Assembly (NCBI GenBank): GCA_913020765.1 | Contig: CAJWAO010000013.1 | Span: forward strand, 1-41,076 | Origin: an uncultured Flavobacteriales bacterium | GTDB taxonomy: Bacteria > Bacteroidota > Bacteroidia > Flavobacteriales_D > Crocinitomicaceae | DNA length: 41,076 bases | Direction of reading: 5' to 3' | Shown here: positions 27,436 through 33,882 of the stretch, in pieces | Layout: each line of letters begins with the position of its first letter | Numbering within the stretch: position 1 is the stretch's first letter | Notes under the pieces: model-generated | The model's database searches: none | What the model was told of the DNA's origin: nothing | Seen by the model: the letters and a program-made list of their open reading frames with translations, nothing else | Made by a program: the position numbers and the translations under genes

Positions 27436-27593
27436 TGCCGGGTAATAGATACTACAACTGTACTGTTGATATGTCCTTTTAGTTTCCCATTTTGATAGTG
27501 TAACAATATTTATATTTAATCAATAATTATTCTAAATAATGCCGTGTATTGATTTTTGACAATACTATGCGTGCATAATATAATAAGTTTAAT

Positions 27594-27601
27594 TATATTT
27601 G
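27594..27601 (+). promoter_or_regulatory. Predicted -7 box for the Fe-S oxidoreductase operon
   Basis: TATATTTG, a perfect TAnnTTTG, lies 17 nt before the ATG at 27619, within the 183-bp gap after mlaD. The -33 position lacks TTG. It supports starting the gene at 27619 rather than at an upstream TTG (27556). Confidence 0.5.
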
Positions 27602-27618
27602 GTATATATAAAGATAAA

Positions 27619-28956
27619 ATGAACATAAGTATTCTTTTTTTCTGTATTATCGCATCCCTAGGGATTGCCTTTTTCTCCTATAATATTTGGAAAATAAAAT
27701 ACAATATTAATCTTGGACTTTCTCTTGAACGAACGGATCAAAAAAGGAAAAGACTAAAAACCATGATACTGGTTGCTTTTGGTCAAAAAAAGATGTTTTC
27801 ACGACCAATACCCGCAATACTCCATTTATGCCTTTACGTCGCTTTCGTTATTACCCAAGTGGAATTATTAGAAATTTTTGCAGACGGAATTTTAAACGAG
27901 CACCGCCTTTTTAAGTCCTCTCTCGGTGGTTTTTACACATTTACAATAAGTTTTATAGAGATACTGTCTGTATTGGCATTTATCGCAACAATTGCATTTC
28001 TTGCAAGAAGGAATTTGCTTAAGCTGCCAAGGCTCAATATGAAAGAAATGATTGGATGGCCGACAAAAGATGCAAACCTGATTCTCATTTTCGAACTAAT
28101 TCTATTGGTCTGCATCTTCACAATGAATGGAACGGATGAGGTATTATTTCAAAGAGGCGCCTCACATTTCAGTGAAGGAACCATTGGTAGCTTTGGTTTT
28201 AGCGTCTCATCATTTATCGGACCTTTATTGTTTGATGGATTCAGTAACCACACCTTGCATATTGCTGAAAGAGTAGGTTGGTGGGGGCATTTATTTATGG
28301 TTTTAGGATTCTTAAACTACCTCCCCTATTCCAAGCATTTTCACATTCTATTAGCATTTCCAAATACCTACTATTCCAACCTCGATAAAAAAGGAAAGTT
28401 TACGAATATGGATAGTGTCACCAGCGAAGTAAAGTTAATGATGGATCCAACAGCAGACCCTTATGCAGCACCAGACCCAAATGCCCCACCTCCCTCGAGG
28501 TTTGGAGCCAAAGATGTGACTGATTTAACTTGGAAAAACTTAATGGATGCATACACATGTACAGAGTGCGGTCGGTGCACCTCATCATGTCCCGCAAACA
28601 TAACAGGGAAGCTTCTTTCACCGAGAAAAATAATGATGGATACACGAGACCGTCTTGTAGAACTAGGTGAAAATAAAAGAAAAAATGGAAAAGATTTTGA
28701 CGATGGCAAGTCTTTACTTGGTGACTATATTTCGGAAGAGGAACTTTGGGCATGTACTTCATGTAATGCCTGTGTAGATGAGTGTCCTGTCAATATTGAT
28801 CCATTATCTATTATCGTTGACCTAAGAAGGTTCTTGGTAATGGAAGAATCAAAAGTTCCTAGCGAATTAACAGGAATGCTCACCAATATTGAAAACAATG
28901 GTGCGCCATGGCAATTCTCACAAAATGATAGATTAAACTGGGCAAATGAAGAATAA
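27619..28956 (+). CDS. Membrane-bound 4Fe-4S oxidoreductase (heterodisulfide-reductase/NarI-like)
   Basis: A 445-residue protein with about five membrane helices in the first 260 residues (MNISILFFCIIASLG; IPAILHLCLYVAFVITQ; FYTFTISFIEILSVLAF; LILIFELILLVCIFTM; GWWGHLFMVLGFLNYL). Histidines in two of these helices (HLCLYVAF, GHLF...KHFHIL) are possible heme b ligands, as in NarI/HdrE-like subunits. The cytoplasmic C-terminus carries two 4Fe-4S motifs: C314, C317, C320, C324 and C379, C382, C385, C389. The likely role is electron transfer between the quinone pool and a soluble partner, for which the CCG protein at 29390 is the obvious candidate. Donor and acceptor are unknown. It overlaps the HAD gene by 11 nt. 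Confidence 0.9.
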   Translation: MNISILFFCIIASLGIAFFSYNIWKIKYNINLGLSLERTDQKRKRLKTMILVAFGQKKMFSRPIPAILHLCLYVAFVITQVELLEIFADGILNEHRLFKSSLGGFYTFTISFIEILSVLAFIATIAFLARRNLLKLPRLNMKEMIGWPTKDANLILIFELILLVCIFTMNGTDEVLFQRGASHFSEGTIGSFGFSVSSFIGPLLFDGFSNHTLHIAERVGWWGHLFMVLGFLNYLPYSKHFHILLAFPNTYYSNLDKKGKFTNMDSVTSEVKLMMDPTADPYAAPDPNAPPPSRFGAKDVTDLTWKNLMDAYTCTECGRCTSSCPANITGKLLSPRKIMMDTRDRLVELGENKRKNGKDFDDGKSLLGDYISEEELWACTSCNACVDECPVNIDPLSIIVDLRRFLVMEESKVPSELTGMLTNIENNGAPWQFSQNDRLNWANEE

Positions 28957-29380
28957 GAACGAAAGATTTAAATTAATTGATGTAAAAGAAGATGGGAAAT
29001 CAATTTCACCTGTTTTACCTGAAGAAGTAAAGAACTATATGATTGACATCGATGGAACGATATGTGATGACATCCCGAACGAAGAGCCAGAAAGAATGGC
29101 AACTGCGGAATTGTTCGATGATGCGCTAGAGACCATAAATACATGGTTCGAACAAGGCCATATCATAACTTTTTTTACCTCCCGAGTGGAGGAACATCGT
29201 GAGGTTACTGAACAATGGCTGAAGAATAATGGTTTCAATTACCATGGCCTTCTCATGGGAAAACCTAGAGGTGGAAATTATCATTGGATAGACAACCATA
29301 TTGTTAGGGCAACCAGATATACAGGAAAGTTTACCAATCTTGTTGAAAAAAGTGCAAACATTCAAGTATTCAAAGAATAA
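28946..29380 (+). CDS. HAD-like phosphatase family protein (often labelled phosphoheptose isomerase)
   Basis: A 144-residue protein. HAD motif I is at 32-40 (MIDIDGTIC; D34 nucleophile and D36), motif II is in ITFFTSR, and a late motif with acidic residue is NYHWIDNH. The conserved loop HREVTEQWLKNNGF and LLMGKPRGGNYHW match a small family found in Flavobacteria that is commonly annotated phosphoheptose isomerase, although no SIS domain is present. Phosphohydrolase activity is plausible but the substrate is unknown. It is embedded between the two Fe-S oxidoreductase genes, overlapping the first by 11 nt and 9 nt from the second, so it is co-expressed with them. Confidence 0.85.
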   Translation: MKNKNERFKLIDVKEDGKSISPVLPEEVKNYMIDIDGTICDDIPNEEPERMATAELFDDALETINTWFEQGHIITFFTSRVEEHREVTEQWLKNNGFNYHGLLMGKPRGGNYHWIDNHIVRATRYTGKFTNLVEKSANIQVFKE

Positions 29381-29389
29381 AATTCTCGT

Positions 29390-30172
29390 ATGCAAGTACC
29401 TACAATGGCAGACATGATGGCTAGAGGAGAAAACCCTGATATTTTATTTTGGGTAGGCTGCTCTGGTAGTTTTGATGACCGTGCGAAAAAGATAACCAAG
29501 GCCTTGGTCAAAATATTGAACAATTGCCAAGTTTCCTTTGCTGTTCTTGGAAGTGAAGAAAGCTGCACTGGTGATCCGGCAAAGCGTGCAGGAAATGAAT
29601 TCACCTACCAAATGCAAGCGATGATGAACATAGAGGTACTAAATGCATACGAAATAAAGAAAATCGTAACCGCTTGTCCCCACTGTTTTAACACACTTAA
29701 GAATGAATATCCAGAGTTGGGTGGAGATTATGAGGTTATTCACCATACCCAAATGATTCAGGACCTTATCAATCGAGGTAAATTGGGTCTCGAAGAATCC
29801 GGGTCATTTAAAGGTAAAAAAATTACTTTTCACGACCCATGCTATTTGGGAAGAGCAAATGATGTTTACGAGGCTCCCCGTCAGCTTATTGAAAAACTAG
29901 ATGCGGAACTTGTAGAAATGAAAAGATGCAGAACAAAGGGTTTATGTTGCGGTGCCGGTGGGGCTCAAATGTTCAAAGAGGCAGAAAAAGGAAACAAAGA
30001 AATCAACATTGAGAGAACCGAGGATGCCATTGAAACTGCGGCAGAAGTGATTGCAACAGGATGCCCTTTTTGTAATACGATGATGACAGATGGAATAAAA
30101 AATGCAGAGAAAGAGGAAACAGTTAAAGTTTTAGATATCGCTGAATTAATTGCCAATGCAGCCGAACTTTAA
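29390..30172 (+). CDS. HdrB-like (Fe-S) protein with two CCG domains
   Basis: A 260-residue soluble protein with tandem cysteine-rich (DUF224/CCG) domains. The second is complete: C151 (HDPCYLGR), C186-C187 (LCCGAGG), C225 and C228 (CPFC). The first has C24, C59 and C96/C99 (CPHC), but the expected Cys-Cys pair is replaced by Cys-Thr (ESCTGDPAKRAGNE). CCG domains hold noncubane 4Fe-4S clusters in heterodisulfide reductase HdrB and are found in glycolate, lactate and glycerol-3-phosphate oxidases. With the membrane 4Fe-4S protein encoded just upstream, this forms a likely two-subunit oxidoreductase; the substrate is unknown. It overlaps the following gene by 17 nt. Confidence 0.9.
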   Translation: MQVPTMADMMARGENPDILFWVGCSGSFDDRAKKITKALVKILNNCQVSFAVLGSEESCTGDPAKRAGNEFTYQMQAMMNIEVLNAYEIKKIVTACPHCFNTLKNEYPELGGDYEVIHHTQMIQDLINRGKLGLEESGSFKGKKITFHDPCYLGRANDVYEAPRQLIEKLDAELVEMKRCRTKGLCCGAGGAQMFKEAEKGNKEINIERTEDAIETAAEVIATGCPFCNTMMTDGIKNAEKEETVKVLDIAELIANAAEL

Positions 30173-30620
30173 ATCCTTATTCCCCGAAATGCCTGGAGAG
30201 AGTCGGGTTTGGGCCTATCTCTGTAGTAGGCGTCTAAGCGACGAGGAAGCCGCTCTAATAAATGATGAAATCAAAAAATTCACAAGCGCTTGGAAGGCAC
30301 ATCAAAAGCCCTTATCAGCGCAAGGGCAGCTCTTTTACAACCAATATATTATTCTGGTTGTTGATGAATCTATTGAACCAATTTCTGGCTGTTCTATTGA
30401 CTCGTCGGTGCATTTTATAAAAGCTATTGAGAGACATCTGTCGGTTGACTTCTTTAACCGGCTCAATGTACTTATCCTCAACGAGGAAACCCCAAAACTG
30501 ATTTCATATCATGATATAGATGATTTCAAGGGTGATTTCGTTTTCAATCCAAGAATCGAAAGATTGCATGAGTTGAGGGATAAATGGCTTGTGGAAATTC
30601 AATCACCACCCTATTTCTAG
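30156..30620 (+). CDS. Conserved hypothetical protein, Fe-S operon (mislabelled ABC transporter ATPase in relatives)
   Basis: A 154-residue soluble protein starting at the ATG 30156 (an in-frame TTG two codons upstream is less likely). Visible blocks are SLFPEMPGESRVWAYLCSRR, FTSAWKAHQKPLSAQGQLFY, IILVVDESIEPISGCSIDSS and LNVLILNEE. To my knowledge related flavobacterial proteins are often named ABC transporter ATPase, but there is no Walker A, signature or Walker B motif, so that name is not supported. It is the last gene of the operon, overlapping the CCG gene by 17 nt. Its stop shares the palindrome CTAG (30617-30620) with the stop of the converging aldehyde dehydrogenase-like gene. Function unknown. 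Confidence 0.82.
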   Translation: MQPNFKSLFPEMPGESRVWAYLCSRRLSDEEAALINDEIKKFTSAWKAHQKPLSAQGQLFYNQYIILVVDESIEPISGCSIDSSVHFIKAIERHLSVDFFNRLNVLILNEETPKLISYHDIDDFKGDFVFNPRIERLHELRDKWLVEIQSPPYF

Positions 30621-31495
30621 TATGAATTCGAGGCACCACCTATTTTCTCAATGGGATGCCACGTTGTTTTAAGCTCTTGAAAATCCGTGATAAATTGAAT
30701 TCCTTGCTCTTGCATCAGACTAAAATCATTTGAATAAGCACGCACACGCTTAAGATTATCAACTGAAGCCAATTGAACTTTAGTAACGTACTTGTTACGT
30801 ACATCCAAACTTATTCCATTCACATCCATGTGAGAAGATAAGGGCGACCATAATTCATCAATATGACCTGTTAGAATATTTACAACTCCTCCGGGAACAT
30901 CAGATGAATTCAGCACCTCAGCCAAAGTAACTGCGCAAAGAGGTTTGTCTTCAGAGGCGATAATTACGCATGAATTGCCTCCTGCAATAACAGGCATGAG
31001 CATCGAAACTAAACCCAATAGACCAGAAGACTGCACTGCCATAATCCCGATTACACCCATGGGTTCATAGCTTGAAAAATTAAAATGAGACGAACTAACA
31101 GGATTTACAGAGCTAGCCACTTGATTAAATTTATCACACCAACCTGCGTAGTAAACAATTCTATCTATGGAATTATCCACCTCCATTTGTGCTTCTTTTT
31201 TGGTAGAATTCTCAAGCATTAATTCTTCCACAAATTGAGCTCTTCTTCCCTCAAGCATTTCAGCAATTCTATACAATACCTGTCCTCGGTTAAAGGCTGT
31301 TCTCTCCTGCCAAGAACCTTGTGCCTTTCTGGCAGACTGAACCGCATTTCTAACGTCTTTTCTTGAGCTGAGGCATACATTTGCAATAGGTTCTTTAGCT
31401 TTATTTAGGACTTTATAAAATCTTCCTGATTCAGTTCTAGGAAACTTTCCATCGATGTATAATTTATATGTTTTCAAAACTTCTACACGTTTCAT
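30617..31495 (-). CDS. Half-length, catalytically dead aldehyde dehydrogenase (ALDH16-like second domain)
   Basis: A 292-residue protein related to the NAD-binding half of aldehyde dehydrogenases: YKLYIDGKFPRTESGRFY, VQSARKAQGSW, IDRIVYYAGWCDKFNQ, EPMGVIGIMAVQSSGLLGL, NSCVIIASEDKPLCAVTLAE and VPGGVVNILTGH. The PWN motif is replaced (MAVQSSG), and the catalytic Cys domain and general-base Glu are absent. It ends in a conserved-looking tail with KTTWHPIEKI. It starts 8 nt after the complete ALDH, in a different frame. The combined length (480 + 292) is close to that of ALDH16, which has one full ALDH unit plus a second unit lacking the catalytic domain. A structural or regulatory partner of the ALDH is the best inference. 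Confidence 0.85.
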   Translation of the reverse strand: MKRVEVLKTYKLYIDGKFPRTESGRFYKVLNKAKEPIANVCLSSRKDVRNAVQSARKAQGSWQERTAFNRGQVLYRIAEMLEGRRAQFVEELMLENSTKKEAQMEVDNSIDRIVYYAGWCDKFNQVASSVNPVSSSHFNFSSYEPMGVIGIMAVQSSGLLGLVSMLMPVIAGGNSCVIIASEDKPLCAVTLAEVLNSSDVPGGVVNILTGHIDELWSPLSSHMDVNGISLDVRNKYVTKVQLASVDNLKRVRAYSNDFSLMQEQGIQFITDFQELKTTWHPIEKIGGASNSY

Positions 31496-31503
31496 ATCTA
31501 TTT

Positions 31504-32946
31504 TTATTTAAGATAGGCTCCCAAGCCATGTAAACCACCTTCTCTCCCAAAACCACTTTCCTTATACCCCCCAAAAGGAGATGAAGGGTCAAACTTATTA
31601 TAGGTATTCGCCCAAACGACTCCTGCTTTTAGCTTGGAAGTAAGGTTAAAAATTTTGGATCCCTTGTCAGTCCATACTCCAGCAGCTAAACCGTAGGGTG
31701 AGTTGTTTGCTTTCTGAATCACCTCGTCAACAGTTCTGAAGGTTTGAATCGTCAACACAGGGCCAAAAATTTCCTCTTGAGCTAAAATACTCGACTGAGC
31801 AACATTTATAAAAAGCGTAGGTCGGCAATAATAACCCTCGGTAGGGATAGCACAATCAGTTTGAAAAAATTCAGAGCCCTCCTTAATTCCAATATCAATA
31901 TACCTGTTAATAATTTTGAGCTGCTCCTTTGAATTTATGGCACCCACATCAGTATTCTTATCTAGAGGATTTCCAACCTGAAGTGATTGCATTCTATGTT
32001 TGAGTTTTCGAATAACCTTCTCCGCAACACTCTCCTCAACGAACAATCGTGAACCCGCGCAGCATACATGACCTTGATTAAAAAATATCCCATTAATAAT
32101 CCCCTCAACAGCCTGATCAATAGGGGCATCACCGAAAATTATGTTGGCAGACTTTCCACCCAACTCAAGTGTTGCCCTCTTATTAGATCCTGCAATCGTT
32201 TTTTGAATTAATTTACCCACCGCCGTTGAACCTGTGAACGCTATTTTAGAAACTTTTGGATGCGCAACGATTGCGGCGCCTGTATCGCCAAAACCAGTTA
32301 CAATATTTACGACTCCTGGAGGAATTCCAGACGCTTCAATAATTTCTGCCAATTTCAATGCAGTCAGAGAGGTCGTCTCTGCTGGTTTCAAAACAACTGT
32401 ATTTCCCGTAGCCAAAGCTGGCGCAATTTTCCATGCAGCCATAAGTAGAGGGAAATTCCATGGTATAATTTGTCCTGCAACACCAAGGGATTTTTTGTGC
32501 TGGTTGGGAAATGCATATTCCAATTTATCCGCCCAACCTGCATAATAAAAGAAATGATTACATGCTAGGGGAATATCGATATCGCGTGCCTCTCTTATGG
32601 GTTTTCCTGAATCTAAAGATTCAATTACTGCCAGCTCACGTGCTTGCTCTTGCATCAATCTGGCGATTCTAAAAATATATTTACCCCGCTCTGCAGCGCT
32701 AATTTTAGACCATAGCTCATAAGCCTTCTCTGCAGCCTGAACTGCAAGGTCAACATCCTCCTCATTGGCTTCTGAAACATCGGCTATATGTTTCTCATCA
32801 TGCGGATTAGATGAAGAAAAATATTTGTTCGATGAAGGTTTGACCCATTTTCCATCGATATACAAGTCATATTGCTTCCTTAAATTGATATGACTGGCAT
32901 TTTCAATAGAATCTGCATACTCCCAAGCGTTATTTTTTGTACTCAT
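31504..32946 (-). CDS. NAD(P)-dependent aldehyde dehydrogenase of the deoC operon
   Basis: A 480-residue complete ALDH. It has the oxyanion asparagine N163 (IPWNFPL), the general base E261 (LELGGKSANI), the catalytic cysteine C295 (FFNQGHVCCAGSR, with C296 next to it), the cofactor segment FTGSTAVGK and the C-terminal EEIFGPVL and SPFGGYKESGFGREGG. It follows deoC after a single base, so it most likely oxidises acetaldehyde, the second product of DeoC, to acetate. The paired half-length ALDH begins 8 nt downstream. The protein ends a little earlier than many ALDHs (at GLGAYLK), as the first domain of ALDH16 does. Confidence 0.93.
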   Translation of the reverse strand: MSTKNNAWEYADSIENASHINLRKQYDLYIDGKWVKPSSNKYFSSSNPHDEKHIADVSEANEEDVDLAVQAAEKAYELWSKISAAERGKYIFRIARLMQEQARELAVIESLDSGKPIREARDIDIPLACNHFFYYAGWADKLEYAFPNQHKKSLGVAGQIIPWNFPLLMAAWKIAPALATGNTVVLKPAETTSLTALKLAEIIEASGIPPGVVNIVTGFGDTGAAIVAHPKVSKIAFTGSTAVGKLIQKTIAGSNKRATLELGGKSANIIFGDAPIDQAVEGIINGIFFNQGHVCCAGSRLFVEESVAEKVIRKLKHRMQSLQVGNPLDKNTDVGAINSKEQLKIINRYIDIGIKEGSEFFQTDCAIPTEGYYCRPTLFINVAQSSILAQEEIFGPVLTIQTFRTVDEVIQKANNSPYGLAAGVWTDKGSKIFNLTSKLKAGVVWANTYNKFDPSSPFGGYKESGFGREGGLHGLGAYLK

Positions 32947-32947
32947 A

Positions 32948-33859
32948 TTAGTCTAATGTAAAATAATCAGCAGATTGATAAATCCCCGACTCAGTCTTCA
33001 AAATCTGCATTAAAACATCATTGGCCAAGCTACTTGCGCCAAATCGAAACCATTTATTTGTAAGCCATTCTTCACCTAAAACCTCCTTTACCATTACTAA
33101 ATTATGCAAGGCGAGCTTCGCATTCGAAATACCACCAGCTGGTTTCATACCAACCATCTTGCCCGTTTCATCGTAATAATCACGAATAGCTTGCAGCATC
33201 GTATAGGTTACCTGTAATGTCGCAGCTGGCTGAATTTTACCCGTAGATGTTTTGATAAAATCCGCACCCGCATAAATAGCAATATCGCTTGCGCGACGAA
33301 CATTATCCAATGTCGTAAGCTCGCCGGTCTCTAAAATAACTTTTAATCTAGCCGAGCCACAAAGCTCTTTGATTGCGGCGATTTCATCAAAAACAAAGGC
33401 ATGTTCTCCCGCCAAAAACTTTCCTCTTGAAATTACCATATCTATTTCATCTGCACCATTTTCAACAGCATATTTCGTATCAGCAATCTTTACATCTAGT
33501 GGGGCCTGACCGGAAGGAAAAGCCGTAGAAACAGAGGCTACTTTTATACCATACTTTCCAACAATAGACTTTGCTAAGCCAACCATAGAAGGATATACGC
33601 ATACTGCTGCAACTACTGGCAAACCAGGATGCCCATTATGCAAATGAGCGGCCTTAAAACACATTTGTTTGACTTTACCCTCGGTATCCTTTCCCTCAAG
33701 TGTGGTTAAATCGATCATGCTAAGTGCCATTTTCAAGCCCTGCATTTTTGCAGTCGTTTTAATACTTCTAGATTGAAATCTCGCCACACGCTCTTCTACA
33801 CCTACCTTATCTATAGATGGAGACGGTGGAACTTCATTGAAACGGTATTTAGCAGTCAT
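32948..33859 (-). CDS. deoC: Deoxyribose-phosphate aldolase (long type)
   Basis: A 303-residue aldolase that splits 2-deoxyribose-5-phosphate into glyceraldehyde-3-phosphate and acetaldehyde. The Schiff-base lysine is K203 in DFIKTSTGK, and the active-site aspartate is D140 in ADEIDMVIS. The second lysine lies in GMKPAGGIS. It carries the N-terminal extension (about 50 residues before MIDLTTLEG) of the eukaryote-like DERA subgroup rather than the 220-250-residue short form. The ATG at 33859 is chosen: the in-frame TTG at 33877 lies inside the -7 box. First gene of a three-gene operon with two ALDH genes. Deoxynucleoside catabolism is the natural role, but no phosphorylase or transporter is adjacent. 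Confidence 0.96.
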   Translation of the reverse strand: MTAKYRFNEVPPSPSIDKVGVEERVARFQSRSIKTTAKMQGLKMALSMIDLTTLEGKDTEGKVKQMCFKAAHLHNGHPGLPVVAAVCVYPSMVGLAKSIVGKYGIKVASVSTAFPSGQAPLDVKIADTKYAVENGADEIDMVISRGKFLAGEHAFVFDEIAAIKELCGSARLKVILETGELTTLDNVRRASDIAIYAGADFIKTSTGKIQPAATLQVTYTMLQAIRDYYDETGKMVGMKPAGGISNAKLALHNLVMVKEVLGEEWLTNKWFRFGASSLANDVLMQILKTESGIYQSADYFTLD

Positions 33860-33874
33860 AAATTCTGTTCTGAT

Positions 33875-33882
33875 CAAAGATA
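33875..33882 (-). promoter_or_regulatory. Predicted -7 box for the deoC operon
   Basis: TATCTTTG on the minus strand is a perfect TAnnTTTG. Transcription would begin near 33868, leaving a leader of about 9 nt before the ATG at 33859. No -33 TTG at the preferred distance. Confidence 0.5.

Follow-up and report, generated by a model that had tools for sequence, protein, structure and literature searches.

EtfD of Mycobacterium smegmatis (PDB 9OJN) is the ETF:menaquinone oxidoreductase of beta-oxidation (PMC13083937). As described in that paper, the enzyme contains one heme b and four Fe-S clusters, namely two cubane clusters (D3 and D4), a noncubane [4Fe-4S] cluster (D2) and a linear [3Fe-4S] cluster (D1); electron transfer from ETF to menaquinone is proposed to run along this chain, and growth on fatty acids requires the enzyme. 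For EtfD, D2 is reported to lie about 8 A from D3. The same source gives FadF of Bacillus subtilis and DgcB of Pseudomonas aeruginosa as EtfD homologues. EMO, the ETF:methylmenaquinone oxidoreductase of Syntrophus aciditrophicus, is likewise a membrane heme/FeS enzyme placed between ETF and the menaquinone pool; we liken it to the form reported here by its description, which differs in being diheme (PMC8805022). Classical ETF-QO (PF05187) has the same proposed job but is not homologous to EtfD, according to PMC13083937. Here we analyze a 41,076-nt stretch from an uncultured Flavobacteriales bacterium (assembly GCA_913020765.1, contig CAJWAO010000013.1, positions 1 to 41,076; the window), in which two genes of a compact block, encoding a membrane Fe-S protein and a CCG-domain protein, probably specify a two-subunit EtfD.

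Results

Homology to EtfD and conservation of cofactor ligands

In a search of all solved chains, both Fe-S proteins of the window had one outstanding match, 9ojn_A. Residues 12-258 of the CCG protein (260 residues; 29390..30172, + strand) align with 491-745 of this chain (E 5e-79). The membrane protein (445 residues; 27619..28956, + strand) aligns in two pieces with chain residues 47-333 and 401-477 (E 2.9e-40 overall); the aligned residues are 59-367 and 389-465, as numbered in a longer frame of 466 residues that opens with TTG at 27556. The best start of this gene is the ATG at 27619. Pfam scans detected a 4Fe-4S dicluster in the membrane protein and two CCG domains in its partner. Placed end to end, the two subunits have the domain order of mycobacterial EtfD (Rv0338c / MSMEG_0690). 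The mycobacterial enzyme is a single chain of 1042 residues with a disordered C-terminal region, whereas the window form consists of two genes, lacks that region and has an optional gene in between. We do not regard the single polypeptide as defining the family and, given the two genes, file the window pair as a two-subunit variant of EtfD.

Ligand residue numbers from PMC13083937 were checked on the printed alignments, and each fell on the named residue. Every ligand named there for the heme and for D1, D2, D3 and D4 is present in the window proteins. The axial histidines of heme b, H78 and H241 in EtfD, correspond to H69 and H242 and are unsubstituted in all rows covering them, and the membrane protein has all eight cysteines ascribed to the cubane clusters D3 and D4 in that paper. 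In the CCG protein, the D2 ligands (C637, C672, C673, C709, C712 and H583 in EtfD numbers) are present, and the D1 site (C503, C538, C581 and C584, together with T539) is complete; the presence of these D1 cysteines distinguishes it from FadF and DgcB, which lack them (PMC13083937). Among 143 CCG rows from the loci, which include some genomes twice, the exact ligand pattern of the window was found in 124, the four D1 cysteines in 141 and the six D2 ligands in 142. Alignments read by eye indicate that the quinone-site residues Phe85 and Phe230 of EtfD are also conserved.

A prediction made earlier from the DNA letters alone had proposed a membrane oxidoreductase linked to quinone, in which heme-b histidines and two 4Fe-4S clusters are combined with an HdrB-like CCG subunit. 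This was right, and it matches EtfD. The same prediction held that the set has no assigned substrate and would lose its novelty to a clear homologue with a known one; EtfD is such a homologue, with ETF as electron donor. It was also correct that the block has no FAD subunit, but the FAD carrier would be ETF, which is encoded elsewhere in the genome.

Co-occurrence with ETF and exclusion of ETF-QO

If the pair acts as EtfD, its genomes should contain the partners of that enzyme. To examine gene content, we used three samples: 40 relatives, 197 genomes of the class and 247 genomes of the phylum. Strong EtfD was defined by the CCG match, with a limit of E<=1e-50 for the phylum sample and E<=1e-70 for the class sample. 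The CCG query matched 38 of the 40 relatives, 188 of the class genomes (183 at E<=1e-70) and 201 of the phylum genomes (152 at E<=1e-50).

ETF is present in 37 of the 40 relatives, and acyl-CoA dehydrogenase in all of them. Classical ETF-QO was found in none of the 40, in a search that matched 3 of 14 controls, and the Fer4_ETF_QO domain (PF05187) had no match in the window's genome, which is 88.6% complete. Across the phylum, ETF is nearly universal (243/247; missing from G184, G216, G232 and G236, which are also outside the 201 genomes matched by the CCG query), and all 152 genomes with strong EtfD have it. ETF-QO occurs in 43 of the 247 genomes (42 above cut-off), and 39 of these 43 have no CCG match at E<=1e-50, their best CCG matches being 1e-4 to 1e-8. 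The exclusion between EtfD and ETF-QO has a Fisher p of 6e-15. Gene order provides further linkage. At locus L085, genes for acyl-CoA dehydrogenase, EtfD, EtfB and EtfA lie in a row on one strand, and at L084 EtfD is followed by one other gene and two open reading frames resembling EtfB and EtfA, the first of which is among the ETF matches of the phylum sample.

Homology over most of both subunits, the conserved ligands, linkage of the two genes, co-occurrence with ETF and acyl-CoA dehydrogenase, and absence of ETF-QO together argue that the 445- and 260-residue proteins are the two subunits of an EtfD and act as an ETF:menaquinone oxidoreductase; we put the probability of this at roughly 0.87. 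Sequence and gene content thus lend good support to a known enzyme in two-subunit form.

Several observations weigh on the other side. Arg150 of EtfD, a heme contact, aligns with Glu in the window (again by eye), and the etf genes of the window's genome lie on another contig (G000:C25). ETF was not detected in G011 and G029, two of the 38 CCG-bearing relatives. Strong EtfD and ETF-QO coexist in 4 of the 247 phylum genomes (G044, G124, G258 and G266, the ETF-QO of G266 being below cut-off), and, as the ETF-QO genomes fall into three families (f27, f38 and f25), the Fisher p value above overstates the weight of the exclusion. Neither enzyme is found in 56 of the 247; since only four genomes lack ETF, another route of ETF oxidation is implied in those 56. 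A lineage whose EtfD lacks the D1 cysteines also exists (see below), and our literature search found no experiment on EtfD in Bacteroidota.

Split and fused forms, and variation at D1

Among the phylum matches listed, CCG frames of the class are 256-341 residues long and those of family f28 are 262-304, lengths that indicate the split form. The other matches listed have frames from 313 residues up, mostly 660-730, indicating fusion, which is the usual state of EtfD in the rest of the phylum. Like the window pair, fused Bacteroidota EtfD (L084, L085) has 4Fe-4S and CCG domains, but it occupies one open frame, of 662-665 residues in L084, L085 and L087. Within the class, a fused gene occurs in G315 (L086, 692 residues).

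The neighborhood comparison called for by the original prediction gave a mixed answer: the membrane and CCG genes, and mostly the gene for a 154-residue protein, are kept together, but the HAD-family gene that lies between the two subunit genes in the window is present in a minority of loci. In 57 loci with a CCG match (window included), the membrane gene lies upstream in all 57, in some with a small extra gene between; the 154-residue protein is encoded downstream in 54, and the HAD gene is present in 12. Among 80 named loci, the best of 591 candidates, 74 have the membrane gene (69 within 1 kb upstream, 4 farther away and 1 on the opposite strand), 72 the 154-residue protein gene and 26 the HAD gene. 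Strict adjacency of membrane and CCG genes in all 57 loci was considered and dropped, given the small intervening open reading frame in some and the gap of more than 1 kb in 4 of the 80. Hosts of the named loci include Flavobacterium, Crocinitomicaceae, Maribacter, Pedobacter, Chryseobacterium and Emticicia; the closest are from Crocinitomicaceae and Flavobacteriales metagenome-assembled genomes, which suggests that the window comes from this group as well.

Two loci, L110 (2967-3746, - strand) and L192 (1460-2236, - strand), encode CCG subunits that lack all four D1 cysteines while keeping the D2 ligands and the membrane subunit. They come from G068 and G125, the two genomes of genus g20 (family f16) that were examined; ETF is present in each, and neither is among the 43 with ETF-QO. 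In PMC13083937, D2 is taken as a possible point of electron entry because FadF and DgcB are likewise without D1 cysteines; the lack of these cysteines in both homologues also means that D1 is not needed in the wider family. The g20 lineage adds another D1-less case, here within a group whose other members retain D1. The Thr539 position varies as well, with Cys in L084 (1981-3969, + strand) and L085 (4702-6696, - strand) and Asn in L087; Cys at this position is described for Hdr (PMC13083937).

Alternative explanations

CCG-type quinone oxidoreductases such as Hdr, LdhH, GlpC, TmcB and DsrK raise the question of whether the pair accepts electrons from some other donor (heterodisulfide, lactate, glycerol-3-phosphate or sulfur compounds). 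NCBIfam models do match the CCG protein, TfrB with 134.6 bits and LdhH with 123.4 bits for example, but these scores are far under the curated cut-offs (385 and 800 bits), compared to 5e-79 for the EtfD match. HdrB chains also match in the PDB search, at E 1.5e-6 or weaker; however, the window has Thr60 and His98 where Hdr has catalytic cysteines according to PMC13083937, and thus lacks the bridging catalytic cysteines at both noncubane clusters that characterize HdrB/HdrD. The block also contains no dehydrogenase gene, and we consider a different donor improbable. Another scenario retains the homology and changes the role: the enzyme would work predominantly in the reverse direction, or would serve other ETF-linked dehydrogenases in place of acyl-CoA dehydrogenases. 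There are precedents, in that Syntrophus EMO can serve enoyl-CoA reduction (PMC8805022) and DgcB serves dimethylglycine catabolism (PMC13083937). Yet acyl-CoA dehydrogenase occurs in 40/40 relatives and adjoins EtfD and etfBA in L085, which leaves this scenario a very slim chance.

The original prediction had suggested one dedicated complex or pathway of all four proteins, with a hint of a link to the envelope and with the HAD enzyme perhaps making or removing a phosphorylated substrate. The genes do overlap tightly in the window and in some relatives, and many Flavobacteriales share the gene order that includes lptD, amidase and mlaD (lptD in 50, amidase in 51 and mlaD in 58 of the 80 named loci). 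We found no functional tie for this neighborhood, and the envelope link was rejected. Against a four-protein pathway, the HAD gene is missing from 45/57 and 54/80 loci and, where both genes are among the matches listed for a class genome, lies just upstream of CCG in 26 of 45 and elsewhere in 19. In the named loci all 26 HAD copies are just upstream of CCG, a search confined to the loci themselves. Moreover, EtfD occurs without a HAD match in G019 and G448, two genomes of the same genus. From these observations it follows that EtfD does not need HAD. The HAD protein was accordingly rejected as an EtfD subunit, its description as built into the operon does not stand, and a four-protein pathway seems scarcely credible.

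The HAD gene

The HAD gene (144 residues; 28946..29380, + strand) overlaps the membrane gene by 11 nt. Pfam gave HAD-like hits, with LNS2_PITM1-3 at 30 bits (cut-off 27.7) and Acid_phosphat_B at 26.7, just under its cut-off of 27. Invariant columns in 12 rows include D34, D36, T78, K106 and D116, which we take to be HAD motifs I-IV. With this motif set, the protein is a predicted phosphatase of the HAD superfamily. Its structure model has a mean pLDDT of 72.4, and HAD folds lead the structure matches (Pnkp1, a sugar-bisphosphate phosphatase and Nir2/LNS2). Of the 197 class genomes, 52 have a close homologue (>=59% identity).

The 154-residue protein

The fourth gene (ATG 30156..30620, + strand) overlaps the CCG gene by 17 nt and encodes a protein of 154 residues without a family match in Pfam or NCBIfam. 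It occurs in 179 of the 197 class genomes. Set against strong EtfD, 174 class genomes have both, 9 EtfD alone, 5 the 154-residue protein alone and 9 neither (Fisher 7.6e-8, with related genomes counted singly). In the 129 class genomes for which both genes are among the matches listed, the gene is within 300 bp downstream of CCG on the same strand in 68, at 300-6000 bp in 24 (hence within 6 kb in 92), farther away or otherwise placed in 10 and on another contig in 27. In the phylum sample it accompanies split EtfD in 62 of 62 genomes, other strong EtfD in 7 of 90 and no strong EtfD in 18 of 95. One caveat on these hand counts is that the 62 genomes with split EtfD represent one class and one family, and hence few independent events.

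Across 32 rows, W18, W45, H48, G77 and D81 are invariant and C78 nearly so. When these 32 relatives were scanned at E<=1, matches were scattered and weak; the best E was 0.0077 for Pfam and 0.0011 for NCBIfam, where 3 members matched CheZ. The structure model is confident (pLDDT 94.4). Foldseek returned no match at E<=0.001, and the best VIA-align hit (4wjb_A; Z 5.8, root-mean-square deviation 3.2, 81 aligned) is level with several unrelated chains; these results point to neither a relative nor a new fold.

The association with split EtfD would be explained if the protein were a third component that the enzyme needs, either a docking subunit or a helper in Fe-S cluster assembly. We regard this as doubtful, as 9 of the 183 class genomes with strong EtfD lack the protein and the family also occurs without EtfD. 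Outside the class, lineages that lack strong EtfD also carry it, next to unrelated genes, and strict dependence of the family on EtfD was rejected for its presence in EtfD-less genomes.

As a separate observation, the family match crosses one in-frame TAG in two genomes of the same genus (G019:C4:116337-116735 and G448:C12:21112-21525). The open reading frame in G019 ends earlier (137 residues), and the crossing may be just the tail of the model.

Gene layout and flanking sequence

As originally predicted, the block comprises four overlapping or nearly abutting genes, all on the + strand; their coordinates were confirmed, as were the spacings (11-nt overlap, 9-nt gap between the HAD and CCG genes, 17-nt overlap). 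The promoter placed ahead of them was also recovered, as a consensus match alone: a sigma-70-like site (TTGACA-17-TATAAT; 27556..27584, + strand) with 12 of 12 consensus positions and a 17-nt spacer. Bacteroidota are thought to use other promoter elements, and a perfect sigma-70 match is therefore odd. Its first base coincides with the TTG at 27556 that opens the longer membrane frame. Sites with at least nine matches numbered 8, compared to a mean of 9.6 in shuffled sequences, suggesting that the weaker sites are due to chance.

On the - strand, 30617-31495 holds an open reading frame of 292 residues, aldehyde dehydrogenase-like, that matches positions 6-232 of a 461-position Pfam model. Beside it lie a frame of 480 residues (31504-32946), by eye a full aldehyde dehydrogenase-like protein, and next to that one of 309 residues (32948-33877), by eye a DeoC-like aldolase.

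Discussion

Judged from sequence and gene content, the most likely role of split EtfD is to supply the respiratory chain with the electrons released when fatty acids are broken down. The soluble FAD protein ETF (EtfAB) would be reduced by acyl-CoA dehydrogenases, and perhaps also by further ETF-linked dehydrogenases, and would dock on the CCG subunit. Electrons would enter the clusters of this subunit (D1 linear [3Fe-4S] and D2 noncubane [4Fe-4S]) and then travel through the membrane subunit, by way of its cubane clusters and heme b, to reduce menaquinone. We infer that the two proteins associate, that electrons follow this path and that menaquinone accepts them. The HAD protein is an optional passenger beside split EtfD, and the 154-residue protein a conserved neighbor.

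Judged by titles and the beginnings of abstracts, we found no paper on EtfD in Bacteroidota, and a term search found no mention of Bacteroidota in the main text of two EtfD papers. A flavobacterial phage paper (PMC11267871) was set aside as an EtfD report, because the name there denotes ETFDH, a phage gene. A proteome survey, with filters set at 30% identity and 75% coverage, reported EtfD almost exclusively in Actinobacteria; its coverage filter would exclude a split enzyme.

Two-subunit EtfD would explain in concrete terms how, in many Bacteroidota that lack ETF-QO, the electrons of acyl-CoA dehydrogenases can get back to menaquinone, and it places the recently solved linear [3Fe-4S] site in this phylum. 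The lineage that lacks D1 and retains EtfD and ETF would be a natural test of direct electron entry from ETF to D2, and the 154-residue family would be a testable partner of split EtfD.

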